From: Thermoplasmata archaeon
Lineage (GTDB): Archaea > Thermoplasmatota > Thermoplasmata > Methanomassiliicoccales > Methanomethylophilaceae
Length of the DNA: 37,179 nt
NCBI GenBank assembly: GCA_030539515.1
Contig: JAUNXZ010000002.1
Coordinates: forward strand, 1 to 37,179
Reading direction: 5' to 3'
Shown: one piece after another, positions 1,997 to 31,762 of the stretch
How positions within the stretch are numbered: position 1 is the stretch's first letter
Layout of the letters: each line of letters opens with the position of its first letter
Position numbers and translations under genes: made by a program
The notes under the pieces: generated by a model
What the model was told of the DNA's origin: nothing
The model's database searches: none
The model's input: the letters and a program-made list of their open reading frames with translations, nothing else

Positions 1997-3135
1997 TCGA
2001 CACCGACCCCAACCTCTACACTGGACTCGACGTCTTCTGCATCGTCCTGATGGTCATTCTGCTGCTCAGCGACTACTTCACCGCCGACCGCGGCCGCTCC
2101 CGCACGCTCTTCCGCCGGATGCTGGTCGCCGCGACGGTGATGATCCTGTTCGACATGCTGGGGTCCGCCGCCGAGGACGGCCACATCCGCCTTCCGAAGG
2201 ACGCCATCTACGTGCTGAACCTGCTCAGCCTGTGGGGCCTGGCGTTCACCAGCTTCTTCTGGGTCCGCTTCTGCGGGGTCCAGAGGCTCAGGTACGGGTG
2301 CACAGGCCCGGACGGCAGGCGCTTCTGGAGAGCGTTCCTGATCGTCACGGTGCTGGTCATAGCGACCAACTGGTGGACCCACTGGTTCTTCGACATAGCG
2401 GTCGGGCACATCTACGTGGCCGGGCCGCTCTACCCGGTGATGATGGTCATGCTGTGCTTCCCGGCGTTGGCGGCCATGTTCCTGTCGGCCCGCGACGCGC
2501 TCCGCGCGGGGTCGGCCTTCGACAGGAGGGGGAACGCCCTCCTCGCATCGTTCACGATCCCGGTCCTGGCCTTCGGGTTCGCCCAGGCGGCGGCCTTCGG
2601 GCTCCCGCTGCTGAGCATGGGCGTGGTGCTCGGGTGCGTCATCGTCTACATGAACCTCCAGACGTCCCTGATCACCGAGGACCCCCTCACGCAGATCAAC
2701 AACTCCGTCAAGATGGACCGCCAGATCCGCAGGGCACTGGACGACCGCAGCGTCCCGTTCCGCATCGCGCTGATGGACATAGACAACTTCAAGCGGATGA
2801 ACGACAGGTACGGCCACGCAGAGGGGGACGAGGTCCTGAAGACCATGGCCCGCGCGCTCGTCGAGGCCTGCGGGGACACCGACTGCGTGCCCGCAAGGTA
2901 CAGATGGGACGAGTTCGTCATCACGTACCGCGGGGAGGACGTGTCCGAGGTGGACGCTGCCATCATAAGGCTGAACGGCATCCTCGGGAGGGAGAGCGAG
3001 GGCCGTCCGTACACCCTGCATTCGACCGCGGGGATACTGGACCTCGACGAGACGCACTTGACCCACGACGACGTGGTGGGCGCGGTCTACGCCGAGAAGA
3101 CCCGCGCCAAGAGGGAGGCTGGACTGATCCGATGA
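1993..3135 (+). CDS. Membrane GGDEF-like protein with degenerate signature
   Basis: A paralogue of the preceding gene: an N-terminal multi-pass membrane half and a C-terminal GGDEF fold. DPLTQINN, DIDNFKRMND and GHAEGDEVL are well preserved, but the signature is RWDEF (about 304-308) instead of GGDEF and the SIG strand is STAG. Loss of both glycines argues against cyclase activity, so it may bind nucleotide or partner its neighbour as a sensor. ATG 1993 is preceded by AAGGTGG and overlaps the upstream TGA; an in-frame GTG at 1984 is a less likely start. The gene ends CGA-TGA (3130-3135). If CGA terminates here, the protein ends one codon earlier, with CGA overlapping the A of the Kae1 ATG. 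Confidence 0.82.
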   Translation: MIDTDPNLYTGLDVFCIVLMVILLLSDYFTADRGRSRTLFRRMLVAATVMILFDMLGSAAEDGHIRLPKDAIYVLNLLSLWGLAFTSFFWVRFCGVQRLRYGCTGPDGRRFWRAFLIVTVLVIATNWWTHWFFDIAVGHIYVAGPLYPVMMVMLCFPALAAMFLSARDALRAGSAFDRRGNALLASFTIPVLAFGFAQAAAFGLPLLSMGVVLGCVIVYMNLQTSLITEDPLTQINNSVKMDRQIRRALDDRSVPFRIALMDIDNFKRMNDRYGHAEGDEVLKTMARALVEACGDTDCVPARYRWDEFVITYRGEDVSEVDAAIIRLNGILGRESEGRPYTLHSTAGILDLDETHLTHDDVVGAVYAEKTRAKREAGLIR

Positions 3136-4112
3136 TAACGATGGGCATCGAGGGCACGGCGCACACGCTGGGCGTGGGCATCGTGGATTCGGGATGCGAG
3201 GTCCTGGCCAACGAGCTCGACATGTTCCGCCCGCCGTCCGGGGGACTGCATCCGCGCGAGGCGGCCAACCACCACGCGGACGTCGCCGCGACGGTGATGT
3301 CCCGCGCCATGGAGAAGGCCGGCGTCGGCCCCGAGGACATCGACCTCGTCTCGTTCTCCATGGGCCCCGGCCTGGGGCCGTGCCTCCGCGTGGCCGCGAC
3401 CGCGGCGAGGGCGTTCGCCTGCATGCGGGACCTCCCGATCATCGGGGTCAACCACTGCATCGCCCACATCGAGATCGGGCGCGCCCTGACCGGATGCCGC
3501 GATCCCGCGCTGCTGTACGCTTCCGGCGGGAACACGCAGGTCATAGCGTTCGCCGAGGGCCGCTACAGGATCTTCGGGGAGACGCAGGACATCGGCATCG
3601 GCAATATGCTGGACAAGCTCGGGAGGGACCTGGGGCTGGGGTTCTACGCCGGCCCGACCATCGAGAAGCTGGCCGCCGAGGGCTCGAAGTACCACGAGCT
3701 CCCGTACTCGGTGAAGGGCATGGACGTGGCCTTCTCCGGCATGATTACCGCGGCCGTCGCGCTGCACAACAGGGGCGTCCCGCTGGAGGACGTGGCGTAC
3801 TCCGTCCAGGAGACGGCGTTCGCCATGCTCACCGAGGTCACCGAGCGCGCCATGGCGCACATCGGGAAGAGGGAGGTCCTGCTCGGAGGCGGCGTCGCCC
3901 AGAACGGCCGCCTGAGGGACATGGTGGAGGACATGGCCCACGCCCGCGGAGCCGAGATGTACGTCCCGGACAGGCAGTTCTGCAGGGACAACGGCGCGAT
4001 GATCGCGTGGCTCGGAGCGGAGATGCACAGCTCCGGCGTCAGGATGACCGTTCCCGAGACCGTCGTCCGCCAGAGGTTCAGGACGGACGAGGTCGAGGTC
4101 GGCTGGCGCTGA
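3132..4112 (+). CDS. kae1: tRNA N6-threonylcarbamoyladenosine (t6A37) synthase subunit Kae1
   Basis: The catalytic KEOPS subunit, which transfers the threonylcarbamoyl group to A37 of ANN-decoding tRNAs. The 326-residue protein has the ASKHA fold with the metal-ligand pair in NHCIAHIE (His108 and His112) and the acidic ligand in DNGAMIA (Asp286); ASGGNTQ and the GGGVAQN nucleotide loop are also intact. No Bud32 kinase is fused at the C-terminus, unlike in several methanogens. ATG 3132 overlaps the end of the second GGDEF gene by four bases; ATG 3141 is an alternative start that keeps the conserved GIEGTA strand. Linkage to two GGDEF genes is unusual for this housekeeping enzyme. It meets the next gene tail to tail with a three-base gap. 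Confidence 0.95.
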   Translation: MITMGIEGTAHTLGVGIVDSGCEVLANELDMFRPPSGGLHPREAANHHADVAATVMSRAMEKAGVGPEDIDLVSFSMGPGLGPCLRVAATAARAFACMRDLPIIGVNHCIAHIEIGRALTGCRDPALLYASGGNTQVIAFAEGRYRIFGETQDIGIGNMLDKLGRDLGLGFYAGPTIEKLAAEGSKYHELPYSVKGMDVAFSGMITAAVALHNRGVPLEDVAYSVQETAFAMLTEVTERAMAHIGKREVLLGGGVAQNGRLRDMVEDMAHARGAEMYVPDRQFCRDNGAMIAWLGAEMHSSGVRMTVPETVVRQRFRTDEVEVGWR

Positions 4113-6378: not shown

Positions 6379-7032
6379 TCGCGCCCTCCTGAAGACGATC
6401 ATCTCGTGGTCCTTCTCGTAGGGGTCGAGGCCCCTGGCGTCGACTATGCGGAAGCCCCTCTCGCGGATGCGGGACTCCGCCTCCGCGAACACCTTCGCCG
6501 GCGGCGCGGTGACGTCCTCCGAGCGCGCCTTCACGGCCACCATGCCCCACTCCGCCCCGAAGGCGTCCATGTTGTCGCAGACGATGTCCGCCTGCCTCTT
6601 CTGGGCCACGTCCTGGTAGACCGCGGACACGCCCTCCGCGAACATCCGGTACTCGTCGGGCTTCGTCGCATCGCCGAGGACCGGCATCATCTGGGGCCTG
6701 CCATCGCAGTTCCTGACCAGCTCGCGGAACATCCTGGGGGCGAACTCCACGCACACGACCTTCCCGCCGCGGGCGATGTCCGCCACGTGGGAGGCGGTCG
6801 TGCCGCTGGAGGCCCCGAGGTACAGGACCCCCGAGTCCTCCGAGAACGGCACCTCGCGCCCGCCTGCGGTGAGGTACGCGGCGAGCTTGCTCCTCCTGGG
6901 GTCCCACTCGCGGTACTCGTCGGCGCCGGAGCGGACCAGCCGCTCCCCGTACACCCTGCGGCCGGGACAGGCCGACCTGGTGTACAGCCTCCCGCGATCC
7001 TCGAACACCCCTTCGGGCCCCAGCGGTTCCAT
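6379..7032 (-). CDS. flpA: Fibrillarin-like rRNA/tRNA 2'-O-methyltransferase
   Basis: The methyltransferase of archaeal C/D-box RNPs, guided to rRNA and tRNA by sRNAs with Nop5 and L7Ae. Hallmarks are VYGERL, YREWDPRRSKLAA, the SAM loop LYLGASSGTTASHVAD (about 70-85), the YQDVAQ strand, VAVKARS, and the closing PYEKDHEMIVF with the catalytic His. The start is ATG 7032, exactly 26 bases from a TATA element. The protein reaches its normal end at about 217 residues, where codon CGA (6379-6381) stands. Under the standard code the frame runs on to TAG at 6154, adding 75 Arg-rich residues that are merely the Nudix gene read in another frame. CGA is therefore taken as the stop. Confidence 0.9.
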
Positions 7033-7083: not shown

Positions 7084-8697
7084 ATGATCACGATGGCGGA
7101 CCTGTCGGCCATAGCCGACGCTGTCCAGGCGGCCGTGGAGAAGATCCCCACGTCCGAGGAGAGGGGGAAGAAGGTGTGCATGGGCGCGGACGGCACCTAC
7201 TCGTCCCAGGTGGACAAGGTGGCCGAGAACGCGGCCCTGATGTACATCGAGGAGCACCGCCTGCCCCTGAACGTCCTCAGCGAGGAGATAGGCTACGTGG
7301 ACAACGGCGGCGAGGAGGTGCTCGTCATGGATCCGATCGACGGCACGTCCAACGCCATCGCCGGGCTCCCGTACTACACGGTGTCCCTCGCGGTCGGGAA
7401 GTCGCACCTCTCGGACATCCGCCTCGGGTACCTCCGCAACCTGGCCACCGGCGACGTCATCTGCGCCGAGAAGGGCAGGGGGGCGTTCAAGAACGGGAAG
7501 CCGATCCACGTCAGGAAGGCCGTCCCGGACGACCTGTTCCTCATGATCTACGAGGGCAACGGCGCCCACCCGGACGCTTTCACGGTGGCCAAGCTCGTCC
7601 GCTCGTCCCGCTCGCTCGGATGCGCGTCCCTGGAGATGGAGATCGTCGCCGAGGGCGAGGCGGACGGCTTCTTCATGAAGGCCGAGAAGTACACCCGCTC
7701 CGTGCGCATAGTCGACATCGCGGCGAGCACCATAATCCTCAGGGAGGCGGGCGGCGAGGTCTACGATCTGGACAACAACGTCCTGGAGATGCCCTTCGAC
7801 CTGGAGCATCGCTCGAACCTGCTGGCCGTGGGCGACGACCGCGTCTACGACATCATAGCCAGGCACCGCATCCACCGCGCCGAGCACAGGTACGGCGTGT
7901 ACGCGAACGCGCAGATCGGGAACATCCTCAAGCCCGCCAGGGAGGTCGTGGAGTTCCTCCGCGAGTCCGGGGCCGACTTCTGCGTGGACACCGGCATCGC
8001 CGAGGCGCTCGGCGTGCCGGGCATACCTCTGTCGAGGATGAACGCCGACATCGTCATAGTCGTGGGAGGGGACGGGACCATCCTCCGCGCCCTCCAGGCC
8101 ACCGACGCCATCATCATAGGCGTCAACGGCGGCAGCGTCGGGTTCCTGGCCGAGATCGAGAACGACGCCATCCGCGAGGGCCTCCAGAGGCTCCTGGACG
8201 AGGACTACATCGTGGAGACCAGGTTCAAGCTGTCCTGCTTCTACAACGGCGAGTACCTGAAGGACTCTGTGAACGAGGCGGTGGTCCACACGGACACCGT
8301 CGCCAAGATCCGCCACTTCAGGGTCTACGTCGACGACGTGCTCGCATCCGAGCTCAGGTCCGACGGGATCCTGGTGTCGACGCCCACCGGGTCCACATGC
8401 TACGCCATGTCCCTCGGGGCCCCGTACATGGACCCCAAGGTCAACGCGCTGATGGTGGTCCCCATGGCCGCCTTCAAGTTCAACTCCCGCCCGTTCGTGG
8501 TCCCCGCGACGTCCAAGGTCACGGTTGAGAACGTGCTGGACAAGGGCTGCCTCATCGTGCTCGACGGCCAGGACGAGATCTACATGGAGGGAGGCTCCAG
8601 GGTGGAGTTCATGATGTCCGAGCAGAGGGCCCGCTTCATCCGCTTCAACACGGACTTCTACTCGCGCGTAAGGGACAAGCTGGTGAACACCCTATGA
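7084..8697 (+). CDS. Bifunctional NADP phosphatase / NAD kinase fusion
   Basis: A 537-residue fusion that balances NAD and NADP pools. The N-terminal inositol-monophosphatase-type domain (about 1-265) carries the metal ligands EE (67-68) and DPIDGTSN (from 83) plus the later DIAAS segment. The C-terminal kinase domain has GGDG (328-331), NGGSVGF (from 348) and TPTGST (from 433). The same domain order is known from Methanocaldococcus MJ0917, whose two activities have been characterised. ATG 7084 is at leaderless distance from its TATA box; ATG 7093 is an alternative. The TGA overlaps the next ATG (8694-8697), so the JAMM gene is co-translated. Confidence 0.93.
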   Translation: MITMADLSAIADAVQAAVEKIPTSEERGKKVCMGADGTYSSQVDKVAENAALMYIEEHRLPLNVLSEEIGYVDNGGEEVLVMDPIDGTSNAIAGLPYYTVSLAVGKSHLSDIRLGYLRNLATGDVICAEKGRGAFKNGKPIHVRKAVPDDLFLMIYEGNGAHPDAFTVAKLVRSSRSLGCASLEMEIVAEGEADGFFMKAEKYTRSVRIVDIAASTIILREAGGEVYDLDNNVLEMPFDLEHRSNLLAVGDDRVYDIIARHRIHRAEHRYGVYANAQIGNILKPAREVVEFLRESGADFCVDTGIAEALGVPGIPLSRMNADIVIVVGGDGTILRALQATDAIIIGVNGGSVGFLAEIENDAIREGLQRLLDEDYIVETRFKLSCFYNGEYLKDSVNEAVVHTDTVAKIRHFRVYVDDVLASELRSDGILVSTPTGSTCYAMSLGAPYMDPKVNALMVVPMAAFKFNSRPFVVPATSKVTVENVLDKGCLIVLDGQDEIYMEGGSRVEFMMSEQRARFIRFNTDFYSRVRDKLVNTL

Positions 8698-9071
8698 CGG
8701 ATGTGATCCGCGGGGTGGACGTGGACTTCATCGACGCCTTCAACGAGGCCGCCCGGTCCACGTACCCCGACGAGTTCCTGTGCATGGTCCGCGAGATAGA
8801 CGGGATCGTCTCGGAGATGGTCCTGCTGCCGGGCACGGTGTACGGGGACTCGCACAGCTTCCTCAACCAGTGGATGGCCCCCATAGACTACAGCCTCGCC
8901 GGGTCGGCGCACTCGCACCCGGGGTACTCGAACGAGCCCTCGGACGCGGACAAGGACTTCTTCAGGAACACCGGAGGCATCCACTTCATAACGTGCCAGC
9001 CGTACGACCGGGGCAGCTGGCGCGCGTACAACTCGCGCGGCGACCCGGTGGACCTGGAGATCGTGTACCGA
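8694..9071 (+). CDS. JAB/MPN (JAMM) metalloprotease
   Basis: A 125-residue JAMM zinc protease of the type that removes ubiquitin-like SAMP proteins in archaea. The site is complete: Glu34, then His73-Ser-His75, Ser83 and Asp86 in HSHPGYSNEPSDAD. It follows the NAD kinase fusion with an ATGA overlap. The conserved fold ends at VDLEIVY, directly followed by codon CGA (9069-9071). Under the standard code the frame continues to TGA at 9143, adding 24 residues and overlapping the opposing gene by 67 bases. With CGA as stop the two convergent genes are five bases apart. Target proteins are unknown. Confidence 0.85.
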
Positions 9072-9076
9072 GGATT

Positions 9077-10435
9077 TCACTGGCGTCCGCGGAGGATCGT
9101 GTCGACGAGCTCGCCGACGACCTCCATCAGGCCCACCAGGTAGGCGCGGTCGCCGGATTCGGCGATGGCCTCTATGACGTCCCCGTCCCTGACGGTCTTC
9201 CGGCGGAGCAGGAACCATCCCTCGTCCATCACGATCCTGAACTCGTCCCCGTACTGGGTGCAGCGGTCCGCCAGGGGGCCGAGGCTCTCCTCGACCGCGC
9301 GCCTGAACGCGTCCGCCTTCAGGGGGCACCCGTACTCCCTCCTCTCGCGCATGAAGGCCGGGAGGCCCTCGCAGATGGTGTGGAGGCTGTTGTCCCCGGC
9401 CATCTGCACAATGGCCGCGGCGGCGCGGATGCCGTCGCCGATGGCGGCGTTGCCCCCGAAGAGGATGCTTCCGCGGAAGTACCCCAGCTCGGCGCCCTCT
9501 GCCACCGCGTCGCACACCGCCGAGGGGCTGTCGCGGGTGAGGATCAGCTCCCCGGAGTCGGACGGGGGGTCCTCGTGGGGCGTTATCACCTCGGCCGCCG
9601 CCCTGCCGCGGAAGACCTCCTCGATGATGGAGGGGGAGTCCGCCGTTATGGCGATGGACTTCGGCTTCAGGTACATGACGAGGAGCGCGAACACGCGCTC
9701 CGGGGGGATGGGGAGGCCGATCTCGTCCACGACCCTCAGCGCCGTGCCGATGCCGTTGACGCGGATCCCGATGCTCCCGGGGTTGGCCTCCACGATGTCC
9801 TCCAGGGATCCGAGGCCGTCCTCCCCGTCCGCTCCCGTGTCGGGGCGGAAGTCGGGGTCCTTCTGGGCGTTGATCGCCATGACGTCCGCGCCCATACCGT
9901 TGAGGATCCCCGGGAGGGAGTCGGACGCGGCGCCGCACATGCAGTCCACGACGACGGAGCACTTGACCCCGCCCGGGAACTCGGATGCGACGCGGGAGTC
10001 GTACTCCTCCGTGATCCCGTCGCGGTACGACAGCGTGCCCATGCGGTCGTGGGCGGGTGGCTTCGGGGGGTTCTGGAACACGAGGTCCAGGTGCCTCACC
10101 TGCTCGTCGCGGAACAGGCCGCCGTCGGGGTTGATCAGGTAGTACCCGCTCATCCTGCCGATGCGTCCGGCCACGTACACGGCGCAGTCCGCCCTGGATG
10201 CGCACATGCCGAGCGCGGGCGCGCTGAGCACGCCTGCGTCGATCACGTCGGCCCCCTGGAACAGGAGCCCCGATATCACGGCCTCGGACATCATCCTGCT
10301 GCCGCGCGCGGTGTCGCGGGCCACGATCACCTTGCCGTGGTCCATAGCCAGCGCCCTTCCGACGAGGATGCCGTCGTCCGGGGAGGTGTCCTCCGTCTGG
10401 GACGACCTGAGGAGAATCCTCCCTACCTGAGTCAT
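9077..10435 (-). CDS. Degenerate phosphohexomutase-family protein (probable pseudoenzyme)
   Basis: A 452-residue protein with the overall alpha-D-phosphohexomutase architecture (recognisable INPDG after the first loop, VVDEIG after the second), yet all four active-site loops are altered. Where TASHNP with the phosphoserine is expected there is VAGRIGRMSGYY (about 87-99). The metal loop DGDxDR is replaced by RVNGIGTALR (225-234). The sugar loop GExSGH is GGNAAIGDG (327-335), and the phosphate loop RPSGTEP is RRKTVRDGD (411-419). The frame is open, long and has normal codon use, so this is a maintained protein rather than a decaying gene. A catalytic role as phosphomannomutase or glucosamine mutase looks excluded; binding or regulation is possible. 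A GGGAG stretch lies upstream of ATG 10435. Confidence 0.75.
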   Translation of the reverse strand: MTQVGRILLRSSQTEDTSPDDGILVGRALAMDHGKVIVARDTARGSRMMSEAVISGLLFQGADVIDAGVLSAPALGMCASRADCAVYVAGRIGRMSGYYLINPDGGLFRDEQVRHLDLVFQNPPKPPAHDRMGTLSYRDGITEEYDSRVASEFPGGVKCSVVVDCMCGAASDSLPGILNGMGADVMAINAQKDPDFRPDTGADGEDGLGSLEDIVEANPGSIGIRVNGIGTALRVVDEIGLPIPPERVFALLVMYLKPKSIAITADSPSIIEEVFRGRAAAEVITPHEDPPSDSGELILTRDSPSAVCDAVAEGAELGYFRGSILFGGNAAIGDGIRAAAAIVQMAGDNSLHTICEGLPAFMRERREYGCPLKADAFRRAVEESLGPLADRCTQYGDEFRIVMDEGWFLLRRKTVRDGDVIEAIAESGDRAYLVGLMEVVGELVDTILRGRQ

Positions 10436-15383: not shown

Positions 15384-15446
15384 AGCCAGCCGTTTATGTG
15401 CTAGCAACGCATCGTGAGACTCGGTGATAAAATCGCACCGACAGGA

Positions 15447-15875
15447 ATGAGCACCATGGATGGCAGCGACCCGGGACGGAGCCCCTACGACATCCGCATC
15501 CGGGAATTACGCGAAGCGATAATGGAGACCGAGAGGGAGAGGCCCAGGGCCTGCCCCTACTGCGAGGTACGGGCCGTAGTACGACACGGCAAGACCTCCA
15601 AGGGCTCCGCCAGGTACAGATGCAGGGCCTGCGGCAAGACGTTCACGCCCCGCGGCGTGATCTCCGGCTCCAGGCTCTCGGCGGACACGTGGATGGCGTT
15701 CGCCGACTGCATGGCGCACGGCTACCCCGTCAGGAGGTCGGCGGACGTGTGCGGCGTCTCGGTCGCCACGGCGTACCGGATGAAGCGGAGGCTCGACGCC
15801 CTCATGGAGGAGTGGCGGGCGATTCGAAACACTGCCCCGACGAGGGGCCCGTGGGGGTCCGCCAGGGCCTACTGA
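15447..15875 (+). pseudogene. Transposase-derived zinc-ribbon/HTH fragment (InsA/IS1595-like)
   Basis: The standard-code frame has a zinc ribbon, CPYC and CRACGKTF (about residues 36-66), like the DNA-binding N-terminus of IS1-, IS1595- and ISNCY-type transposases, then a helix-turn-helix (YPVRRSADVCGVSVATAYRMKRRL). No DDE catalytic domain follows and I see no terminal inverted repeats. Codon use near the start (TTA, GAA, ATA) differs from the neighbours, as expected of acquired DNA. Two in-frame CGA codons occur: one inside the zinc ribbon (15582-15584) and one at 15825-15827, after the helices. If CGA is a stop here, the gene is broken; if the protein is made, this is evidence against that idea. 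ATG 15447 follows AGGA; GTG 15414 is an alternative. Confidence 0.55.
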
Positions 15876-16495: not shown

Positions 16496-18916
16496 TCGGA
16501 AGAAGTCGTCCAGCCTGCGGACCTTGGGCTTCTCCTTCGGCGCCGCGGGCGGGTCCCTCTTCGGCTTGGCGGGCTCGTCCCTGGACGAGAACATGCCGCC
16601 GTCGAGCAGGGTGGCCTGCTGGCTGCCCATCATCAGGTCCTTCTCGCCCCATCCGAACACGTCGGTGACCATGCCGGCCATCTTGGAGAGGCGCTCGGCG
16701 TAGTACTTGTAGTCGGGCTTCGCCTTGAACTCGGCCCCGCTGATGTACGGTTCGACCTTCATCGGTGCGGACTTGGCATCCGTGACGATCCAGGAGACCT
16801 TCATCCCTGGGATGAAGTCGTAGCCCAGGTCGATGAGCTTCTTCGCGGCCTGGACGTTCGCCATCCTCTCGGGGTTCTCGTAGGCGTCCAGCCCCTTGCA
16901 CGATTTGGATATCACCAGGTCGGACACGTCCACCCTGCCGGCCAGAGTGTCCTGTATGGTCTTCTTGGCGAGCGCCAGCGCGTCGTCGTTCCTCTCGTCG
17001 AGGATGCAGGAGAACATCTCCGTCTGGAGCCTGTCCTGCAGGTCGAACGAGTCGGTCCTGCGGCTCTCGTACCCGCGCACCAGGAGCTCCTCCTGGCGGA
17101 CCGGCCACACGACCCTGCCGACGTACCTCTTCTTCTTCCCGTGGGTGAACAGGGGCTCGAGGATCTTCTCGAACTCCAGCGTCCCGCCGTCGCGGGAGTA
17201 CTTGTCGGCCATGCGCTCCCCGAACTCGGCGGAGCCCTCGAGGCTGTGCTCCGGCGACTGCACGAACACCGAGTCGGTGTCCGAGTACACCACGTTGTGC
17301 CCCTCGCCCTGGAGCTCCCCGATAATCCCTTTGACGTTCGCCCTGGCGAACGATGTGATGGCGGCGCCGATGCTCTTGTCGGTGAACCTGTAGAACGACG
17401 AGGCGAACACGCCGTAGAAGGTGTTCATCAGGACCTTCACGGCGGCCTGGAGACCGTCCAGGTAGCGCCTCTCGTGCTCGTCCTTGGCCTGCTTCATCTG
17501 CCTCTTGATCGAATCCCTCTGGTCCATCAGGCCCTGGAGGATCATCGGCAGCAGGCCGACGCGCTCGTCCTTCGAGAGGAACCTGGTCCCCGACGGGGCG
17601 ACGATGGCGCCGTCCGGGGACAGGGTGGTGAAGCAGATGTTCTTCGCGATGATGGTCGAGGGGTACATGGACTTGAAGTCCAGGACGCACACCCAGTGGT
17701 ACAGGCCGGGCTGGATGTCGTGCACGTAGCCGCCCTCGATCTGGTCGTCGTCCCTGACGCGCTTCCCCATCTGGGGCACCGCGACGTTCGCGCGGTCCGC
17801 CGCGCGGATCAGGAGCGAGTCGGCGAGCTGCGAGGAGCCCGATGTCAGAACGTCCTCGATGGAGAGCTTCGACACCGCGGCGAGGTCCATCCCCTTCCTG
17901 AGGGTGTCCACCTCCAGCAGTATGCGCAGCGCCAGCTCGGCGTCCTTGGTGCAGTACTTCAGGACCTTGGCGCGGTTGTCGCGCCACTCGGCGTCCATGT
18001 GCCTGGGGTCCACGTCCAGCTTGGTCTCGCCCAGGAGCTCCTTGGACACGGCGTTGAGCGTCTCCTGCTTCGGCCTGAGCTCCCTCCTGGCGGCCCACCA
18101 GGCGTCGCAGATGATCCTGCCCTTGACCCTCCAGAACCTCTCGCTCCGGAGCTTCGGCTGCCCGCCGTCCCTCCCCCAGGGGAGGGCGTCCTTCATGCGG
18201 TTGGCCTTGGCGCGCTCCTCGATCTTCCTGATGTCGTAGTTGTCGATGTTGTACCCGGTGATGACGTCGGGGTCCTCCCTCCGGATGAGGTCCGAGAACC
18301 CCTCGATGATCTCCTTCTCGGTGCCGGAGATGGGCTCGCACTCGCGTATGGCGCCCTTCTCCCAGACCACGGCGCAGATGCAGTAGAGGAAGTCGTGCTC
18401 GACGCTGTTCTCGATGTCGAACGACAGTATCCTCAGGCCGGGGTCGAAGGGGTCGATGTTCTCGAAGGAGGACATCTCCAGGGTGATGTCGGTGAGGTAC
18501 TCCTTGTCCACGGGCTCGCCGGACACGCGGATGCACGCGCCCATGTCCGTGTCGTAGGTGTAGCGGTGGTTGAACGGGATGTCCGCCGCGAGCGACTCGA
18601 CGCCCCTGGTCCGGAGCCTGCTCCTGAAGTCGGAGACCTTCCACGGGCTCTTTATCTCGATGCGGAGCGCGTCCACGGTGCGGCCGCGGTACAGGAGGCC
18701 CTTGTGCTCCAGGTTCGTGACCTCGCCGTCCTCGGACAGCTGCTTCTCCAGGTCGGCCGGGACCTCCACGCCGTACAGGTAGGGGCGGAACCCGCGGACC
18801 AGCACCGTGGCGGACCTGCCGTCCCGGGCCTTCCCGTATATTTCGATTACAGGTTCGTCCCCGTCCGTTGTGTAGGACGTGCTGAGTATCCTGATCTCGG
18901 CCGTCTCCATGGGCAT
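16496..18916 (-). CDS. polB: Family-B replicative DNA polymerase
   Basis: About 806 residues. Proofreading motifs: Exo I FDIENS (Asp167, Glu169), Exo II GYNIDNYD and Exo III YCTKD (321-325). Polymerase motifs: A, DFKSMYPST (Asp413); B, KVLMNTFYG (from 494); and C, YSDTDS (544-549). The protein ends with a PCNA-binding peptide, RRLDDFF, normally at the extreme C-terminus of archaeal PolB. The next codon is CGA (16496-16498). Read as Arg, the frame would continue to TAG at 16229, adding about 89 residues antisense to the Sel1 gene. ATG 18916 overlaps the YchF stop (TGATG), so the two are co-translated; ATG 18910 is an alternative start. Confidence 0.95.
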
Positions 18917-20103: not shown

Positions 20104-20164
20104 TCTATCGCCCCCGCAACGCCTTATCGCGTTAAAGGGTAGCGCAAGCGCGCGAGGCCCCGCG

Positions 20165-20605
20165 TCGCTCGGGGGATCCGCGGAGGTTGCCGACCACGGT
20201 GCCCAGCATCTCGCGGAGCCTCTCCGCCTCGGCGTCGGGGATGCCGTCCAGCAGGTTGCCGTTGACCTCCACGCCCATCTCCACGAACTCCCGGTACACG
20301 GACGATCCGCGCCCGGTGGGCCACAGGGACCTGGCGCGGGCGTCGTCCGGGGAGACGCGGGACTCTATCAGACCGGCCTCCCTCATCCTGTCCGCCATGG
20401 CCGCGGCCGCCTGGTGCGACGCGCCGAGGCCGTCGCGGAGGTCGGATATGCTGCACCCCGGATTCGAGATGATCAGCCCGAGGGCGTCCGCCTGCGAGGA
20501 GGTCAGTCCGAGGCTCGCCGCGTTGGCGTCGCGCTTCTTCTTGACCTCGCGGCCCGCCAGCCTGAGCAGGCGGGCGATCTCCAGGACCTCGCTGTCCGTC
20601 GGCAT
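20165..20605 (-). CDS. MarR-family transcriptional regulator
   Basis: A 146-residue winged-helix regulator. The DNA-binding core runs SLGLTSSQADALGLI, SDLRDGLGASHQAAAAMADRM (recognition helix) and GLIESRVSPDDARARS (wing), flanked by the N- and C-terminal dimerisation helices. I chose ATG 20605 over an upstream GTG because it removes an N-terminal GTG-CGA-AGG and follows GAAGG. The natural end is codon CGA at 20165-20167; the standard code would add ten residues to TAA at 20132. It overlaps the end of the YczE-type gene by 17 bases. A palindrome over the operon's promoter makes self-regulation likely. Confidence 0.88.
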
Positions 20606-21296
20606 CCTTCGCACCGCCGTCCGCGATGGATGTGAGGTCCTTCCCCGGGACGAGGAACGCGGTGAGCCCGGCGAAGTGCTTCATGTACTGCTTGGCCAGC
20701 AGGCCGGTTATGATGCAGCACAGCACCGTCCCCTCCCTGACGCCGCCCAGCGTCCCCAGGCCGATCAGGCCGATGACCGCCGCGATGATGACCATGGAGC
20801 TGTCGGACGCCACGCGCACCTTGCCGTAGCTCTTCCTGGAGCGGATGGTGAGCGCGTAGGCGAACCCGTCCCCGGGCACCATCACGACGTTCGCGACGAC
20901 CTGGAGGTACACGCCGAAGGCCAGGATGACTATGCCCACCAGGACGCAGACCACCTGGAGCCAGTACTCCGCGGGGTTGAGGCCGGAGAACAGCCACATG
21001 GACACGTCCACCAGGTACCCGAAGAAGATCGAGACGACGTACTCCAGGAGGAGGTTGATCCTCTCAGTGCGGTCGAGCCTCTTCCAGAGCATGAGGGCCT
21101 GGAGGGTGACCAGCAGGAAGCTGAACAGGATGGTGAACATCCCGAGGCTCAGCGGGAAGATCATGGACAGGCTGTAGGGTATCGACGTTATGGGCGAGGT
21201 CCCGAGGGACGCCTTGGTTATGACGCCGATCCCGAGGGAGATGCTCACGATTCCGAGGGCGAAGACGACGTAGCGCCTCGCCAGATCGCGGTTCAT
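20589..21296 (-). CDS. YczE/YitT-family membrane protein
   Basis: A 235-residue protein with five or six membrane segments. The N-terminal GIGVITKASLGTSPITSIPYSL and the central VPGDGFAYAL are typical of the YczE/YitT group, whose transport role is undefined. ATG 21296 lies 26 bases from a TATA box, so the mRNA is probably leaderless. After a hydrophilic end (TSIADGGAKDADGQ) comes codon CGA (20589-20591). The standard code would carry the frame to TGA at 20124, adding about 155 residues that are the MarR gene read in another frame. Read as TGA this base would be silent in the MarR frame (AGC/AGT, both Ser). Co-expression with MarR suggests a MarR-controlled exporter or sensor. Confidence 0.8.
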
Positions 21297-23333: not shown

Positions 23334-24557
23334 TCGTGGTTCGTGATAGTCAATCGCCAATACGTCGAGGGCGGTGACGACGCACTTGATTCCCAGCCTC
23401 TCGGAGAAGTTGGGCTGCGTGCGGCCGTCGTCCCCGGACACGAACTCCTTGACGTAGGTCCCCGAGTCCGTCTCCAGCTGGAGGTCGAACCCGTCCTCGT
23501 CGAAGCAGTCCGCCGTCACCCAGTGGATCGTCCTCTTCCTGACCAGGTCGGCCCTTCTGTGCTCGACCCGGCGTGGAGTCCTCTGGTTTATATCGGCGTC
23601 CTTGAACGATAAGGCGGTGTCAACTACTGCCTGTTTATTAACTTTACCCTCCGCCTTAACGCGCACGCGATAGGTCTTGTTGGCGGCCGCTCCCTTGTAG
23701 CGCTCCACCGCCTCCCTCTGCGCGAAGTGCAGCGAGTTGAACGCGGCCATCTCCCCGGAGGCGCGCTCCGCGAGCTCGTCGAGGTCGATGAACCTGTTCT
23801 TCGGCTGGCTGATTTCCAGCACGAACGGCCTCCCGTCCCCCAGCATGCAGGCGTCGATGTCCTCGCGGCCCATGCCGTGGAAGAAGTGCTCGGTCCCGCC
23901 GGTCATCTCCAGCGCCACGTCGCCGATGATCTCCTGGACGGAGGTCTCGTACATCTTGCCCTTGCCGTGGCAGTGGGGGCAGCCCTTGCCGTGGCACTCC
24001 CTGCAGGGCCAGACGGTCTGCGGGATCTCGCGGCTGTACTTGTTGTAGCGCCCGGCGATGAAGATGGGCGCGATGTCCAGCGTGACCTCGCCGAAGCGGG
24101 TGTCCACCAGGGCGACGACCTGGGGGCTCTTGAACTCCACCGGGCGGTGGATCATGGGCAGTGCCAGCTTCCCGATCTCGCGGTTGAGCTCGGACTTGAT
24201 GGCCTCGGGGCTGTCCAGCCCGTACTTCTCCCACAGGGCCTTCTCGGCCTGGACGATGGAGGGCTCCACCCTGGTTCCGACCAGGAAGTTCTCGGACTCC
24301 ACCCCGTTGACGGCTTCCGCCACGTTCTCGGCGAACCTGGGCATGAGGTCGAAGACGCCCTCGCACAGGGGGCACACGTCGCTCGCGGGGAGGTCCTCCC
24401 CGCCCTCGGCGAGCGCCTCGCGGACCATGCGCCCGCGCACGTCGTTGGTCATGCCGCTGCCGACCTTGCCGAACATGCGGCCCAGGCAGCGGTCGCACAG
24501 CCCCTCGGACGCCAGCCCGCGGGCGGCGTCGATCCTCTCGGAAATCCAATCCTCCAT
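23334..24557 (-). CDS. pus10: tRNA pseudouridine synthase Pus10
   Basis: 407 residues, close to the usual archaeal length. It makes pseudouridine 54 and 55 in tRNA. The N-terminal zinc-binding part has CDRCLGRMFG and CPLC; CRECHGKGCPHCHGKG (about 185-200) is a second metal-binding stretch. The catalytic segment is GREDIDACMLGDGRPFVLEI with Asp in the DID triplet. The family's C-terminal strand TALDVLAID is followed by YHEP and then codon CGA (23334-23336). The standard code would add 18 residues overlapping L21e and end at 23277. ATG 24557 is eight bases past the KH gene stop. Confidence 0.92.
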
Positions 24558-26340: not shown

Positions 26341-28095
26341 TCAGGACGACGAGTATCCGTCGAGGATCTCGAGGACCTTGTTCAGCACGGAGATCGCGTT
26401 GGACGAGGTCAGCATGTTGGACAGCCCGGCGGCCTCCACGGCGGCGACGTACCCGTCGTAGCCGGTCTGGAAGACCAGCGTCGTGTACGCGGTCCTGGCG
26501 GCGTCCACATCCTCGCACGCGATGGTGAAGATCTCCAGCGCGTTCAGCCCGGACGTCACGTAGCTGACGATGTACCCGGGCCCGGTGTAGATGTTGTTCC
26601 ACAGGCACCACTCCAGCCCCTCGAATATGGAGGTCTGCGTCACGCCGGCCGCGGCCATCACGTCGTTGACGTACGTCTCGTTCAGCAGCTCGACGGTCAG
26701 CTCGGTGCCGGAGGCCTCCATCTTGTAGACCATGTTCTCGAACACGGCCGTCATGGCGAGGCTCGCGGTGTTCGAGACGGTGTCGGCGATGCCGTTGACC
26801 GTCAGGGCGTCCCCGGAGCTCCCGATGTACGTCGACGCGTCCGCGTAGAGGAGCATCTCCAGCCCCTGGGAGTGGATCTCGTCGATGTCGTAGCAGGAGG
26901 TCATCGTCTCGTTCAGGGACATGTGGGATGCGTGGCCGAACTCGTGCACCAGCGAGGAGTACGCGTCCCATCCGGTGTACCCGGAGATGTACATCAGGGC
27001 GGTGTTCTCGGTGTAGAGGTGGAACGTGACCCCGGCGCTCACCTGGTCGTCGTTCACGTCCTCGATCACGAAGTGCCCCGCGGAGTCCATGGCGTCCACC
27101 AGCTCGGAGAAGCTCATGCCGCTGCTCTCCGGGACGTAGGAGTCCAGGTCGGACACGAACGCCTTCAGGTACTCCAGCTTCTGGTCGTACGTCAGGCCCT
27201 CCATCCAGTCCAGGTTGTCCTCCGAGAGGGACGACTCCTTGGCGAGGGACTCGGCCGTGTCGGACACCTCGTTGAGCTTGGTGACGATGTCGAGCAGCGA
27301 GGAGATGTCGTCCGGCGAGTAGTCCCTGCCGTACAGCTTCTCGTAGGAGTACTCCATGTAGTCGTCGTACCCGTAGAGCACGGCGAGGTCGTTGCGGACC
27401 TCCACGAGGTCGATGTAGAGCTCCACCCTCTCGTTCAGGAACTGGCTGTAGACCATGTAGTAGATCACGCTGTAGGTGTAGTACGAGATCTGCCCGTTGG
27501 AGTAGGCGGTCGCCGCCGACTCCGCCGTCCACGTCCGGCCGCCGTACGTGACCTCTACGCCGGAGAAGTCCAGCTGGTAGAACGTGTTCTCCAGCGTGCT
27601 CTCCTCGGTCAGGAGGGCGGTCTCCTCGGCGGTGACGTCGCTGTACCCCCTGAACATGTCGGGGGTGGCCTCCAGCAGGTAGACCGCTTCCGTCACCTTC
27701 TCGCCGCAGGCGCCGTCCAGGCCGTCCTCCACCGTGGTGTAGAACTGCCTGGCGGCGGTGGACCCGAGGGTGTTCCAGATCGCGTACTCCTCGGCCTCCC
27801 CCGTGGGGTCCTGGTAGTACTCGACGGTGGCGTAGGAGGCCCAGTCGATGATGTAGAGGAGCTCGTTGTACACCGTGATGATGGCGTCCGCCATCTCCTC
27901 CACGGTGAGCGACGAGTCGGCGAGCGTGGCCGAAAGGGAGTCGATGTCCGAGGCGTAGGCCTCGGACACCTCCGAAGCGGAGGGGAGGTCGTACCCCCCG
28001 CTCCCGCTCCCGCGGTCCTGCAGGACGATGTACGCCCCTACGCCCGCGACTACGATGATGGCCGCCACCAGGACGGCCAGGATCTTGGAGTTCAT
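26341..28095 (-). CDS. Exported M3-like zinc metallopeptidase 1
   Basis: 584 residues. A hydrophobic segment (about 4-24) anchors or exports the protein; the rest is extracytoplasmic, acidic and rich in Tyr, Ser and Thr. The active site is LVHEFGHASH (His384, Glu385, His388), with downstream DIDEIHSQGLEML supplying the third ligand as in oligoendopeptidase F-type (M3B) enzymes, whose usual size it matches. It should cut peptides outside the cell. It is the most divergent of three tandem paralogues. A GGTGCGGGTGG stretch lies upstream of ATG 28095; the 54-base gap to the next copy holds GATAT as a weak promoter candidate. Confidence 0.85.
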   Translation of the reverse strand: MNSKILAVLVAAIIVVAGVGAYIVLQDRGSGSGGYDLPSASEVSEAYASDIDSLSATLADSSLTVEEMADAIITVYNELLYIIDWASYATVEYYQDPTGEAEEYAIWNTLGSTAARQFYTTVEDGLDGACGEKVTEAVYLLEATPDMFRGYSDVTAEETALLTEESTLENTFYQLDFSGVEVTYGGRTWTAESAATAYSNGQISYYTYSVIYYMVYSQFLNERVELYIDLVEVRNDLAVLYGYDDYMEYSYEKLYGRDYSPDDISSLLDIVTKLNEVSDTAESLAKESSLSEDNLDWMEGLTYDQKLEYLKAFVSDLDSYVPESSGMSFSELVDAMDSAGHFVIEDVNDDQVSAGVTFHLYTENTALMYISGYTGWDAYSSLVHEFGHASHMSLNETMTSCYDIDEIHSQGLEMLLYADASTYIGSSGDALTVNGIADTVSNTASLAMTAVFENMVYKMEASGTELTVELLNETYVNDVMAAAGVTQTSIFEGLEWCLWNNIYTGPGYIVSYVTSGLNALEIFTIACEDVDAARTAYTTLVFQTGYDGYVAAVEAAGLSNMLTSSNAISVLNKVLEILDGYSSS

Positions 28096-28149
28096 GCGCT
28101 GTCCACCCGCACCTGCGATATCAGCCTTCGTATCGTCCCTTCGGATTCC

Positions 28150-29904
28150 TCACGACGACGCGAGCATCTGCGCCACGTACGTCTTGAAGTACTCGACGAT
28201 CTTGGACGCGTTGTCCGCCTCCAGCATGTTCGAGAGGCCGCAGGACGTGATCGTGTTGACGTAGCCGTCGTCCACGCCCTGGTAGAGCACGGACAGGTAC
28301 AGGTCGATCCCCTTGTCCAGGTCCTCGTTGGCGGTCATGAAGATCTCGAGCGAGTTGAGCACCGAGGTCACGTAGCTCACGTAGTATCCCGGGGAGGCGA
28401 ACATGTGGCCGACCTGAGCCCAGTAGAGCCCGGTGTCGAAGACGGTCGTCAGCGGGTAGTCCGCGTCCAGCGTGCTCCTGAAGTGGTCGTTGAGCGAGTC
28501 CACGGTCAGCTTCGTGCCGGACGCCTCGGTGGTGTACGCCCAGATCTCCAGCTCGGCCACCGCGCTCCCCATGTACAGGGTGTTGGCGAAGTTCGCGAAG
28601 ACGAGCGCGGTGAAGTTGCTCGAGAGGTCGCCGATGTACTCGGACGCCTTGACGCACATCAGGGCCTCGAGGGCCTGGGACTGGGTCTCGGCGATGTCGT
28701 AGCACATGTTGTTGGCCAGGGGGCTCAGGGCGGCGTCGGCGGCGTGGCCCAGCTCGTGGACCAGCGTCCTGAACGTCTCGATGTCCGAGCTCCCGATGTA
28801 CAGGACCGCGCTGTGGGCCTTGACGAGCGGCGTGGTGAACGCGCCGTTGATGCCGTTCTGCGCGTAGTTGATGAGGTTCTGGTCGACCATGTAGGTCATG
28901 AACTCGCCCATGGTGCCGTCGATGCTGCCCATGAAGGAGCCGATGGTGGAGTACATCCAGTCCGTGCCCTTCTCGGTGAGGGAGGAGAGGCTGCTGGCGA
29001 GGAACCTCTCGTCGGTGGAGATGGCGGTGATCAGGGACTGGTATGTGGAGCCGGTGGTGAGCGTAACCTGCAGGGTCTCCTGCACGTCCTGGTAGGTGTA
29101 TCCCCTGTAGAACGTGTTGTTGTAGGCGTAGTCGAGGTAGTTCCCCAGCCCGAGCTCCTGGGCGAAGTCGTTGCGGACCTCCACGAGCTGCACGTAGACG
29201 GTCGCGGCCGCGGTCAGCTGCTCCGTGTAGATGGCGCCGATGATCGTGGCCTTCTCGGTGTCTGTCAGCGTGGCGCTGGACTGCGCGGTGGAGACCGTCC
29301 AGGACGTTCCGTTGTAGGAGTACGTGTACTCCGTGGCCATGATCGTCTGGTACTGGGTGGTCAGCTGCGTGTCCTGGGCCTTGAGCTGGAGCGCGGTCTC
29401 CCCGAGGGGGATGTAGTTCCTGATGTCGGAGACCTTCAGGTCCGTGTAGCCTATGGCGGTCTCCACGAGGTCCGCGCGGTCCCCGGAGAGGGCGTTGTGG
29501 AGCAGCGTCTCCAGGGAGTCGTCGTACCACTGGGCGAGCTCCGTCCAGGATGCGAACGCGGTCGCCTCGGTCGAGGGGCTGATGTAGTAGTACACGGTGG
29601 CCCAGCTGAGCCAGTCGCGCATCTCGGTCAGCCTGTCGCCGGCGGCCTGGGCGGCGGCGTTCATCTCGTCGGCGGTGCCCGACTCGATGGCCGTCGACAG
29701 CGTGTCGATGAGCGTCTGCGACTCGGTCCTGAGCGTTGTGAGGTCCGTGGGGAGCACCCTGCTCTCCTCGGAAACGGCCTCCGGGAAGGCGGACGCGCTC
29801 GGGTGGGCGCTCCCTCCGTGGCCGTTGTTGAGTGCGATGTACGCGCCGACGCCCGCTACGAGGACGATTGCCGCGACGATGATAGCTAGAATCCTTTTGT
29901 CCAT
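28150..29904 (-). CDS. Exported M3-like zinc metallopeptidase 2
   Basis: 584 residues with an N-terminal hydrophobic segment (about 5-26) and a Ser/Thr/Tyr-rich exported body. The active site is LVHELGHAAD (His383, Glu384, His387), followed by DIAETQSQALEALM. Its closest relative in the window is copy 3: both share the ESR.LP motif after the anchor, the TYSYNG/TYTYNG.TWTV strands, the YTTEASGT.LTVD stretch and the C-terminal GLSNML.(A/S)DNAS. ATG 29904 is about 25 bases from a TATA box and probably leaderless; a start further upstream would be out of keeping with the signal segment. Confidence 0.85.
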   Translation of the reverse strand: MDKRILAIIVAAIVLVAGVGAYIALNNGHGGSAHPSASAFPEAVSEESRVLPTDLTTLRTESQTLIDTLSTAIESGTADEMNAAAQAAGDRLTEMRDWLSWATVYYYISPSTEATAFASWTELAQWYDDSLETLLHNALSGDRADLVETAIGYTDLKVSDIRNYIPLGETALQLKAQDTQLTTQYQTIMATEYTYSYNGTSWTVSTAQSSATLTDTEKATIIGAIYTEQLTAAATVYVQLVEVRNDFAQELGLGNYLDYAYNNTFYRGYTYQDVQETLQVTLTTGSTYQSLITAISTDERFLASSLSSLTEKGTDWMYSTIGSFMGSIDGTMGEFMTYMVDQNLINYAQNGINGAFTTPLVKAHSAVLYIGSSDIETFRTLVHELGHAADAALSPLANNMCYDIAETQSQALEALMCVKASEYIGDLSSNFTALVFANFANTLYMGSAVAELEIWAYTTEASGTKLTVDSLNDHFRSTLDADYPLTTVFDTGLYWAQVGHMFASPGYYVSYVTSVLNSLEIFMTANEDLDKGIDLYLSVLYQGVDDGYVNTITSCGLSNMLEADNASKIVEYFKTYVAQMLASS

Positions 29905-29924
29905 CACATGGAATCGGATTGCAG

Positions 29925-29932
29925 GATATAAG
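29925..29932 (-). promoter_or_regulatory. TATA box of metallopeptidase 2
   Basis: TTATATCC on the minus strand, 21-28 bases from ATG 29904, consistent with a leaderless mRNA. Confidence 0.65.
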
Positions 29933-29961
29933 CGGGCATGGGCGGGAAGCGGTTTCCGGGA

Positions 29962-29982
29962 CCCCGGGGGACGCCCCCGGGG
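29962..29982 (-). terminator. Long GC hairpin after metallopeptidase 3
   Basis: CCCCGGGGG and CCCCCGGGG are perfect 9-bp arms around a three-base loop, 16 bases beyond the stop of copy 3. Its core resembles the hairpin after the metY gene (35964-35980). No U-tract follows. Confidence 0.55.
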
Positions 29983-29998
29983 CCCCATGCCGGGTTTA

Positions 29999-31762
29999 TC
30001 AGGACGGGGACTGCGCCGCGATCAGCGCGTCCACGTACGCCTTCAGGTTCTCGAGCACCTTCGAGGCGTTGTCCGAGTCGAGCATGTTGGAGAGCCCGAC
30101 GGCCGTCACGGTGTTGACGTACCCGTCGTCGATGGTCTGGTAGAGGATGTACTTGTACATCTCGACCCCCTGGTCCCAGTTCTCGCTGGCGGTGTTGAAG
30201 ATCTCCATCGCGTTGAGGACCGAGGTCACGTAGCTGACGTAGTACCCGGGGGCCCTGAACAGGTGGCCCACGCTGGCCCAGTGGAGGCCGGAGTCCATCC
30301 TCGTGTCGATGACGACGCCCGTGGCCTCCTGGATGGCCGCGTAGTGCTCGCAGAGCGCATCCACCGTCAGCGTCGTGCCGGATGCCTCGGTGGTGTACGC
30401 CCAGATCTCCAGGTCGGTGACGGCGCTGCCCATGTACAGGGTGTACATGACGTTCAGGAGGAAGTTGGCGGTGTAGGTGTCCGACAGCTCGCCGATGTAG
30501 TCCGACGAGGAGAGGCAGAACAGGCCCTCCAGGGCCTGGGACTGGATCTCGGCGATGTCCATGCATTCGGACCCGTACGAGACGGTCAGGGCCGCGTCGG
30601 CGGCGTGGCCCATCTCGTGGACCATCGTGGTGAACAGCGTGTAGTCGGCGTAGCCGATGTAGACCACGGCGCTGTGCTCCGCCCTCAGGTTGGTCGTGAA
30701 CCCTCCCGCGATCCCGTCGCCCGAGGTGTAGACGAGGCCGTTGTCCTCCATGTACTTCACGAACTCGGACATCGTCCCGTCGATCGTCTCCGTGAACGAT
30801 TCGAGCGTGGAGTAGTTCCAGTCCTGTCCGTATGTGGAGATGGCGTCGAGGTCCTTTGTGCTGAACGTGCCGTCGGTGAACGCCGACCTCAGAGAGTCGA
30901 AGACCGATGCGGAGGTGAGCGTGGTCTGCAGGACGTCCGAGACGTCCGAGTAGGTGTATCCCCTGCCGTACAGGGCGCTGTAGGAGTAGTCCAGGTAGTT
31001 TTCGTACCCGAGGGCCTGCGCCAGATCGTTGCGGACGCCGACGAGCTCGACGTAGACCTCGGCGGCGTCGGTGTACTTCGCGTTGTAGATGCCGGCGCGT
31101 ATCTCGGCCTTCTGCTCGTCGGTCAGCGTGGTGCTGGAATCGACGGAGTCCACCGTCCAGGTCCTGCCGTTGTAGGTGTAGGTGTAGTCCGTGGAGACGA
31201 CCGTCGTGTACTGGGTGGTGAGCTCGGTCTCCTTGGACCTGAGCTCCTGGACCGACTCGCTCTCGGGCGCGTAGCTCTCGATCTCGGTCAGGGACGCCCC
31301 GGCCGCGGTGATCGCGGCCTTGACGTTGTCCGCGTTGTCGCCGCCGACGGCCTCGTGCATGGCCGTCATCATGGCGTCCACGTACCAGCTGACGATCTCG
31401 TTCCACGAGGTGTAGGCGGACTCGTACGTCGTCGGGTCCATGTTGTAGTAGACGGTGGCCCAGGCGCGGACCTCCGAGAACGCCGATGCGACGCTGTACA
31501 GGTCGGTTATGCCCTGGGCGATCTCGTCGGACGTGCCGGTGGCGGCCAGCGCCGTGAACTGGTCGATGAGCGCCTGCGCGCTCGCCCTCTCCGCGTCGGG
31601 ATCCGACGGGAGCTCCCTGCTCTCCTGCGTCACCGTCTCCGGGAACGCGGTGGCGTGGGGCTGCTCGTCGTCGTCGCCGTTGTTCATGGCGACGACCACG
31701 CACGCGGCCGCCGCAACGATGACGACGGCCGCGATGATCAATGCCAGATTCCTCTTTTCCAT
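29999..31762 (-). CDS. Exported M3-like zinc metallopeptidase 3
   Basis: 587 residues, the first transcribed of the tandem copies. It has an N-terminal hydrophobic segment (about 6-26), an acidic spacer (NNGDDDEQ) and an exported body. The active site is MVHEMGHAAD (His382, Glu383, His386), followed by DIAEIQSQALEGLF. It is clearly paralogous to copy 2 over its whole length. ATG 31762 follows GAGGAAG and a TATA box 19-28 bases upstream. Role: probably extracellular peptide breakdown or surface protein processing; substrate unknown. Confidence 0.85.
   Translation of the reverse strand: MEKRNLALIIAAVVIVAAAACVVVAMNNGDDDEQPHATAFPETVTQESRELPSDPDAERASAQALIDQFTALAATGTSDEIAQGITDLYSVASAFSEVRAWATVYYNMDPTTYESAYTSWNEIVSWYVDAMMTAMHEAVGGDNADNVKAAITAAGASLTEIESYAPESESVQELRSKETELTTQYTTVVSTDYTYTYNGRTWTVDSVDSSTTLTDEQKAEIRAGIYNAKYTDAAEVYVELVGVRNDLAQALGYENYLDYSYSALYGRGYTYSDVSDVLQTTLTSASVFDSLRSAFTDGTFSTKDLDAISTYGQDWNYSTLESFTETIDGTMSEFVKYMEDNGLVYTSGDGIAGGFTTNLRAEHSAVVYIGYADYTLFTTMVHEMGHAADAALTVSYGSECMDIAEIQSQALEGLFCLSSSDYIGELSDTYTANFLLNVMYTLYMGSAVTDLEIWAYTTEASGTTLTVDALCEHYAAIQEATGVVIDTRMDSGLHWASVGHLFRAPGYYVSYVTSVLNAMEIFNTASENWDQGVEMYKYILYQTIDDGYVNTVTAVGLSNMLDSDNASKVLENLKAYVDALIAAQSPS

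Follow-up and report, generated by a model that had tools for sequence, protein, structure and literature searches.

Codons that have changed from sense to stop are, to our knowledge, known only from mitochondria. In sphaeroplealean green algae, mitochondrial UCA and UCG have been reassigned in this direction, in a system with a bacterial-type release factor, mtRF1a, and no cognate tRNA (PMC6821328). For prokaryotes, the Codetta screen reported reassignments of arginine codons (CGA/CGG) in bacteria and none in archaea (PMC8629427), and by design it is blind to sense-to-stop changes (PMC9825746). A stop codon can also serve its own release factor: the bacterial prfB gene (RF2) is autoregulated by an in-frame UGA and a +1 frameshift (PMC12421855). 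In the archaeal order Methanomassiliicoccales, UAG has been turned from a stop into the codon for pyrrolysine (PMC4824259).

Here we analyse a genus of gut methanogens of this order, comprising 31 GTDB species including the methanogen ISO4-G1, in which CGA is very probably a fourth stop codon beside TGA, TAA and TAG. As in the algal mitochondria, the sense codon has gone from coding positions and stands at homologous gene ends, and changes in the release factor are suspected; unlike them, these archaea are free-living, use aRF1, have an arginine codon affected and still encode tRNA-Arg(UCG) in most species (PMC6821328). With the Codetta bacteria they share CGA as an arginine codon that was rare before reassignment, but those cases are sense-to-sense changes in low-GC bacteria, whereas the present genomes are GC-rich and CGA is very probably a stop (PMC8629427). 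Pyrrolysine shows altered stop and sense usage in the same order but runs from stop to sense, and both codon and machinery differ (PMC4824259). As with prfB (PMC12421855), the release-factor gene holds a conserved in-frame stop, here a putative one, that its product could read; the archaeal gene differs in encoding aRF1, in using CGA and in a continuous frame, so that bypass would be arginine decoding rather than frameshifting.

Results

An overlap of two genes with CGA in place of TGA

The window, the whole stretch of 37,179 nucleotides that was analysed, belongs to the genome labelled G000; congeners and outgroups are labelled Gnnn. Its minus strand carries a YczE-like gene that overlaps the start of a MarR-family gene:

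20592..21296, minus strand: YczE-like membrane protein (DUF6198, PF19700), 235 aa if CGA is a stop; Pfam 7.6e-17; orthologues of similar length end in TGA
20589..20591, minus strand: CGA proposed to act as the YczE stop; in G020 and G007 this codon is TGA
20124..20588, minus strand: standard-code extension of YczE, considered spurious; 154 codons to TAA, rich in Arg, Gly and Pro, no conserved domain
20168..20605, minus strand: MarR-family regulator, 146 aa if CGA is a stop; Pfam MarR_2 1e-13; orthologues in 9 congeners
20165..20167, minus strand: CGA, probable MarR stop; standard TAA 10 codons on; CGA near the homologous end in G021, G007 and G020

The original prediction placed a CGA in the YczE frame at 20589-20591, and the minus strand indeed reads CGA at 20591-20589. 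The codon covers bases 15-17 of MarR, which starts with ATG at 20605-20603, and spans its codons AGC and GAG. A TGA at this place would be silent in MarR, as had been claimed, because AGC would become AGT and both encode serine, and the predicted run-on of about 155 residues through MarR under the standard code amounts to 154 sense codons, covering almost the whole of MarR, before TAA at 20126-20124. The accompanying argument that selection on MarR does not explain CGA holds only in part: serine choice is heavily biased towards C (AGC 1226 versus AGT 53), so that codon bias can explain how C arose at the YczE stop, but it leaves the tolerance of stop loss unaccounted for. The length of the run-on is by itself no proof, because long open frames under GC-rich genes are common, and in several congeners too the frame stays open for at least about 120 codons past TGA; it is the position of the CGA that lies beyond chance.

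The YczE-MarR pair occurs in ten genomes of the genus. At the exact YczE codon, G020 and G007 have TGA, with MarR reading AGT GAC; G014 and G023 have TGA at an analogous Thr-Asp overlap, and G013 likewise has TGA. At the corresponding overlap of G027, TGA has become CGA, after which no stop is met for about 140 codons; in G015 the CGA is followed by TGA. The YczE stop of G021, the closest relative, lies two codons upstream of the CGA site, and in G016 the two genes do not overlap. The comparison thus indicates that the change from TGA to CGA arose more than once. A conserved hydrophilic C-terminal domain, which would speak for a translated extension, was sought in the YczE homologues, and these end at standard stops at or near the site; a conserved extension was absent in all relatives compared, the extension gave no match in a Pfam search, and no YczE with an added C-terminal domain of some 155 aa was encountered. 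The relatives therefore support the proposal that the membrane protein ends at CGA, and the pattern extends across the genome and the genus. A second YczE paralogue of G000 (contig C82, ORF on the minus strand, 1900-3277) has CGA at the homologous end, followed by 34 further codons.

CGA is missing from gene bodies

In a gene set made with outgroup references only, 403 genes of the genus contributed 88,121 validated body codons. In-frame CGA made up 32 of these across the 31 congeners; 23 were codon 81 of aRF1 and nine lay in two doubtful ORFs, one likely non-coding and the other close to the end of a contig. The triplet itself is not avoided: in the remaining two sense frames of this DNA it occurs 1,224 and 6,377 times. 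The stricter of our earlier gene sets had given 20 CGA among 96,744 body codons. In sister genera, CGA serves as a normal arginine codon, with 28 in 17,636 codons for the family's other genera and 127 in 26,108 elsewhere in the order. Within the genus, CGA is absent from conserved sense positions, aRF1 codon 81 being the only conserved internal occurrence, and its depletion far exceeds that of other rare codons (CTA, CCA, GTA). Loss of CGA driven by AT pressure was considered and rejected, as the genomes are GC-rich and CGA is plentiful out of frame.

These counts depended on how genes were delimited. Shadow ORFs and over-extended starts produced many false internal CGAs in the first homology runs, and were eliminated through codon-model scoring, a requirement for several references and, as the last step, restriction to outgroup references; a paired-alignment scan for shared internal CGAs was discarded because it was swamped by shadow ORFs.

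Genes of the window with a strong third-position GC signature contain no internal CGA and carry it only at their ends, and the same holds for about 300 kb of G000. Apart from these stands a short GTG-start ORF on the plus strand (15414-15875; GC3 0.86) whose codons 57 and 138 are CGA; it could be a complete gene, one that stops at a CGA, or what is left of a transposase-like sequence.

CGA stands at homologous gene ends

CGA also occupies the stop positions of homologous genes. With outgroup-only references, the first CGA in 24 genes of the genus falls at -2 to +1 codons relative to the expected end; in the outgroup genomes, CGA is internal in 102 of 112 CGA-bearing genes. Reading CGA as a stop would truncate 102 of 264 outgroup genes, and the sole credible conserved casualty in the genus would be aRF1. 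Among genus genes with at least three references, frames that overrun the homologous stop by at least five codons have CGA there 17 times and any other codon at most three times, and the outgroups show no CGA at such places. Further cases in the window are:

16499..18910, minus strand: family B DNA polymerase, 804 aa, end RLDDFF; DNA_pol_B 1.4e-54
16496..16498, minus strand: proposed CGA stop of DNA polymerase B; standard frame continues for 88 codons; homologues have TGA (19 species) or CGA (8)
23337..24557, minus strand: Pus10 tRNA pseudouridine synthase, 407 aa, end AIDYHEP; Pus10_C 3.4e-71
23334..23336, minus strand: proposed CGA stop of Pus10; common to G021, G007, G020 and G026; TGA in other congeners
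6382..7032, minus strand: fibrillarin, about 217 aa; Fibrillarin 9.5e-70
6379..6381, minus strand: proposed CGA stop of fibrillarin; standard frame continues for 74 codons
8694..9068, plus strand: JAB-domain protein, 125 aa; Prok-JAB 6e-08
9069..9071, plus strand: proposed CGA stop of the JAB gene; TGA at this codon in G027 and G017; the convergent gene 9077-10435 ends 5 bases further on
3130..3135, plus strand: tandem CGA-TGA at the end of the 7TM-GGDEF gene 1984-3129

DNA polymerase B ends in TGA in 19 congeners, in CGA in eight and in nothing else; the CGA ends fall in several lineages whose near relatives keep TGA, and in G020 the standard frame would run on for 206 codons. Pus10 ends in CGA in five species, KsgA in four and archease in two. 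Beyond CGA ends, standard frames overrun by up to 214 codons. In the last 30 codons of G000 ORFs, CGA is enriched 32-fold; other unusual codons are enriched there too, as expected if the tails are untranslated sequence. Of 388 stops assessed, 343 are UGA, the dominant one. G028, G026, G020, G021 and G000 often end genes in CGA, and G027, G013 and others do so occasionally. In the lower-GC clade that includes ISO4-G1, CGA is absent from gene bodies and aRF1 codon 81 is CGA; seven members had no CGA stop among about 100 assessed genes, and G008 had a single one. An irregular end of another kind was seen in Pus10 of G015 (ORF on the plus strand, 7571-9104), in which GGA takes the place of the stop found in all relatives; the frame continues for 101 codons into the gene downstream without meeting any type of stop, which may reflect a fusion, an error or another cause.

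A conserved CGA inside the release-factor gene

The archaeal proteins are homologous to eRF1, and codon 81 is given in human eRF1 numbering, anchored on N61 of the NIKS motif. This codon is CGA in 23 of 24 aligned genes of the genus and in one of 26 outgroup genes, the others having AGG, CGC, CGG, AGA, CGT or AAG. Its surroundings are invariant in the genus (KCT CGA CTN AAR), although GCT makes up 6% of Ala codons and TCT 4% of Ser codons. A pattern search found the motif once per genome in 25 of the 31 genomes, including all 17 of high quality. Nearly all genomes contain aRF1, although it was not found in the incomplete assemblies of G000, G021 and G002. The reading frame is continuous on both sides of CGA, and a +1 frameshift bypass of the prfB type was not encountered. 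With a C directly after it, the CGA is reminiscent of prfB, where UGA-C is a leaky context.

In aRF1, both NIKS and YxCxxxF are intact. Near NIKS, the genus typically has Q56, A59, M68 and S73, which are candidates for a relaxed reading of the first base; M68 is common to the whole family and Q56 and S73 are shared with G033, so none of them alone explains recognition of C. Just ahead of the CGA codon, A79 also belongs to the substitutions that are specific to the genus or shared with the family.

tRNA-Arg(UCG) is retained in most species

G000 and most congeners encode tRNA-Arg(UCG) at a conserved place, together with tRNA-Arg(CCG), which is able to read CGG. A competing cognate tRNA is therefore present in most members, CGA is in principle still readable as arginine, and a canonical full reassignment would have lost this tRNA; its loss, which we considered as the general cause of the change, was rejected for the same reason. 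In many species, positions 31 and 39 of tRNA-Arg(UCG) are mismatched and its D-loop is short. In the ISO4-G1-like clade, C33 replaces the near-universal U33 and is conserved in several species.

One exception, which accords with CGA as a stop, is G028. Its aRF1 has CGC at codon 81 and CGA at the place where the gene stops in other genomes, and CGA stands at four of eight assessed stops. Two search patterns and inspection beside the syntenic neighbour gene revealed no tRNA-Arg(UCG) in this assembly, which is 87% complete and of uncertain contig extent. In G015, aRF1 codon 81 is CGA, yet the syntenic site yielded no tRNA-Arg(UCG).

Discussion

From this comparison we infer that CGA is no longer an arginine codon in ordinary genes of the genus and that YczE would end at CGA. 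TGA and CGA would be interchangeable at homologous gene ends through a single T/C transition, with high GC favouring the change from TGA to CGA. The reader of CGA is probably aRF1: most likely, this single release factor has a relaxed reading of the first base and accepts CGA as well as TGA, while the retained tRNA-Arg(UCG) would compete for CGA. A feedback on aRF1 at codon 81 is probable. When aRF1 is plentiful, it would terminate its own synthesis at CGA; when it is scarce, tRNA-Arg(UCG) would insert arginine and full-length aRF1 would be made. As the frame is continuous, bypass needs an arginine tRNA, and the need to read codon 81 may explain why tRNA-Arg(UCG) has survived. Weighing against the reading of CGA as a stop are this retained tRNA, the intact NIKS and YxCxxxF motifs of aRF1, the scarcity of CGA stops among the assessed genes of the clade with ISO4-G1, the case of G015 and the missing aRF1 in the G000 assembly.

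Taken as a whole, it is likely that a cellular genus has gained a fourth stop from a sense codon by way of a stage of competition between aRF1 and tRNA-Arg(UCG), with the CGA inside aRF1 acting as a meter of release-factor activity. G028 would have gone further: the meter has been lost, the tRNA has apparently been lost, and CGA accounts for roughly half of the stops assessed, aRF1's own among them.

The same protein ends could arise without recognition by aRF1 if CGA were unassigned, with a scarce or defective tRNA-Arg(UCG) causing ribosomes to stall and aPelota/aABCE1 rescuing them. The absence of CGA as a sense codon fits this explanation, as do the 31-39 mismatch and short D-loop in many species and C33 in the ISO4-G1-like clade. 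We nevertheless consider it unlikely, because a stalling codon should be shunned at gene ends too, yet CGA is enriched there; routine stalling would be costly where CGA is the only nearby stop, as in DNA polymerase B of eight species and aRF1 of G028; and the CGA conserved within aRF1 suggests that this codon and the release factor interact. Ordinary stop loss, which would leave CGA as a very rare arginine codon and give YczE and other proteins harmless C-terminal extensions, is very improbable. It could draw on the presence of tRNA-Arg(UCG) and on the G+C-rich bias, which makes NNA codons rare and AGC preferred over AGT in MarR, but it should leave various codons at the lost stops, where CGA was counted 17 times and any other codon at most three times. 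Moreover, CGA recurs at the same sites across many species and is depleted internally far beyond CTA, CCA and GTA, and the extensions, which lack conservation, are neighbouring genes translated out of frame.

Site-specific C-to-U editing of mRNA, as in plant mitochondria, would turn CGA into UGA at gene ends, and each CGA stop is indeed one such step from the dominant stop. Editing confined to these sites would, however, leave CGA in gene bodies, from which it has been purged throughout the genus; we know of no such mRNA editing in archaea and find this explanation hardly credible. Errors of sequencing or assembly in metagenome-assembled genomes come to mind because the genome of the window is fragmented (82% complete, 186 contigs). 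That they produced the pattern is scarcely conceivable, as many independent assemblies, among them G013 in a single contig and G027 in 10, show it at homologous positions and always with CGA, and the CGA codon of aRF1 is found in 25 genomes including ISO4-G1.

A fourth stop codon in a free-living archaeal genus, if it is correct, would change many annotations of protein ends in 31 species, and this may be the first sense codon found to have turned into a stop outside mitochondria. In a literature search without preprints and with few subscription papers, CGA as a stop came up solely through C-to-U editing in plant mitochondria. Screens of the genetic code in prokaryotes such as Codetta cannot see changes of this kind (PMC9825746). 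The genus would offer a natural series of stages in a code change, from an unused codon through an ambiguous codon to a full stop, and its aRF1 would be a variant suited to the study of how the first base of a stop codon is read. The CGA conserved within aRF1 would suggest that feedback on a release factor has an archaeal origin independent of prfB.

Other features of the window

On the minus strand, the region 26341-31762 carries three tandem paralogous genes of about 585 codons each, with starts that resemble signal peptides (MNSKILAVLVAAII, MDKRILAIIVAAIV and MEKRNLALIIAAVV).
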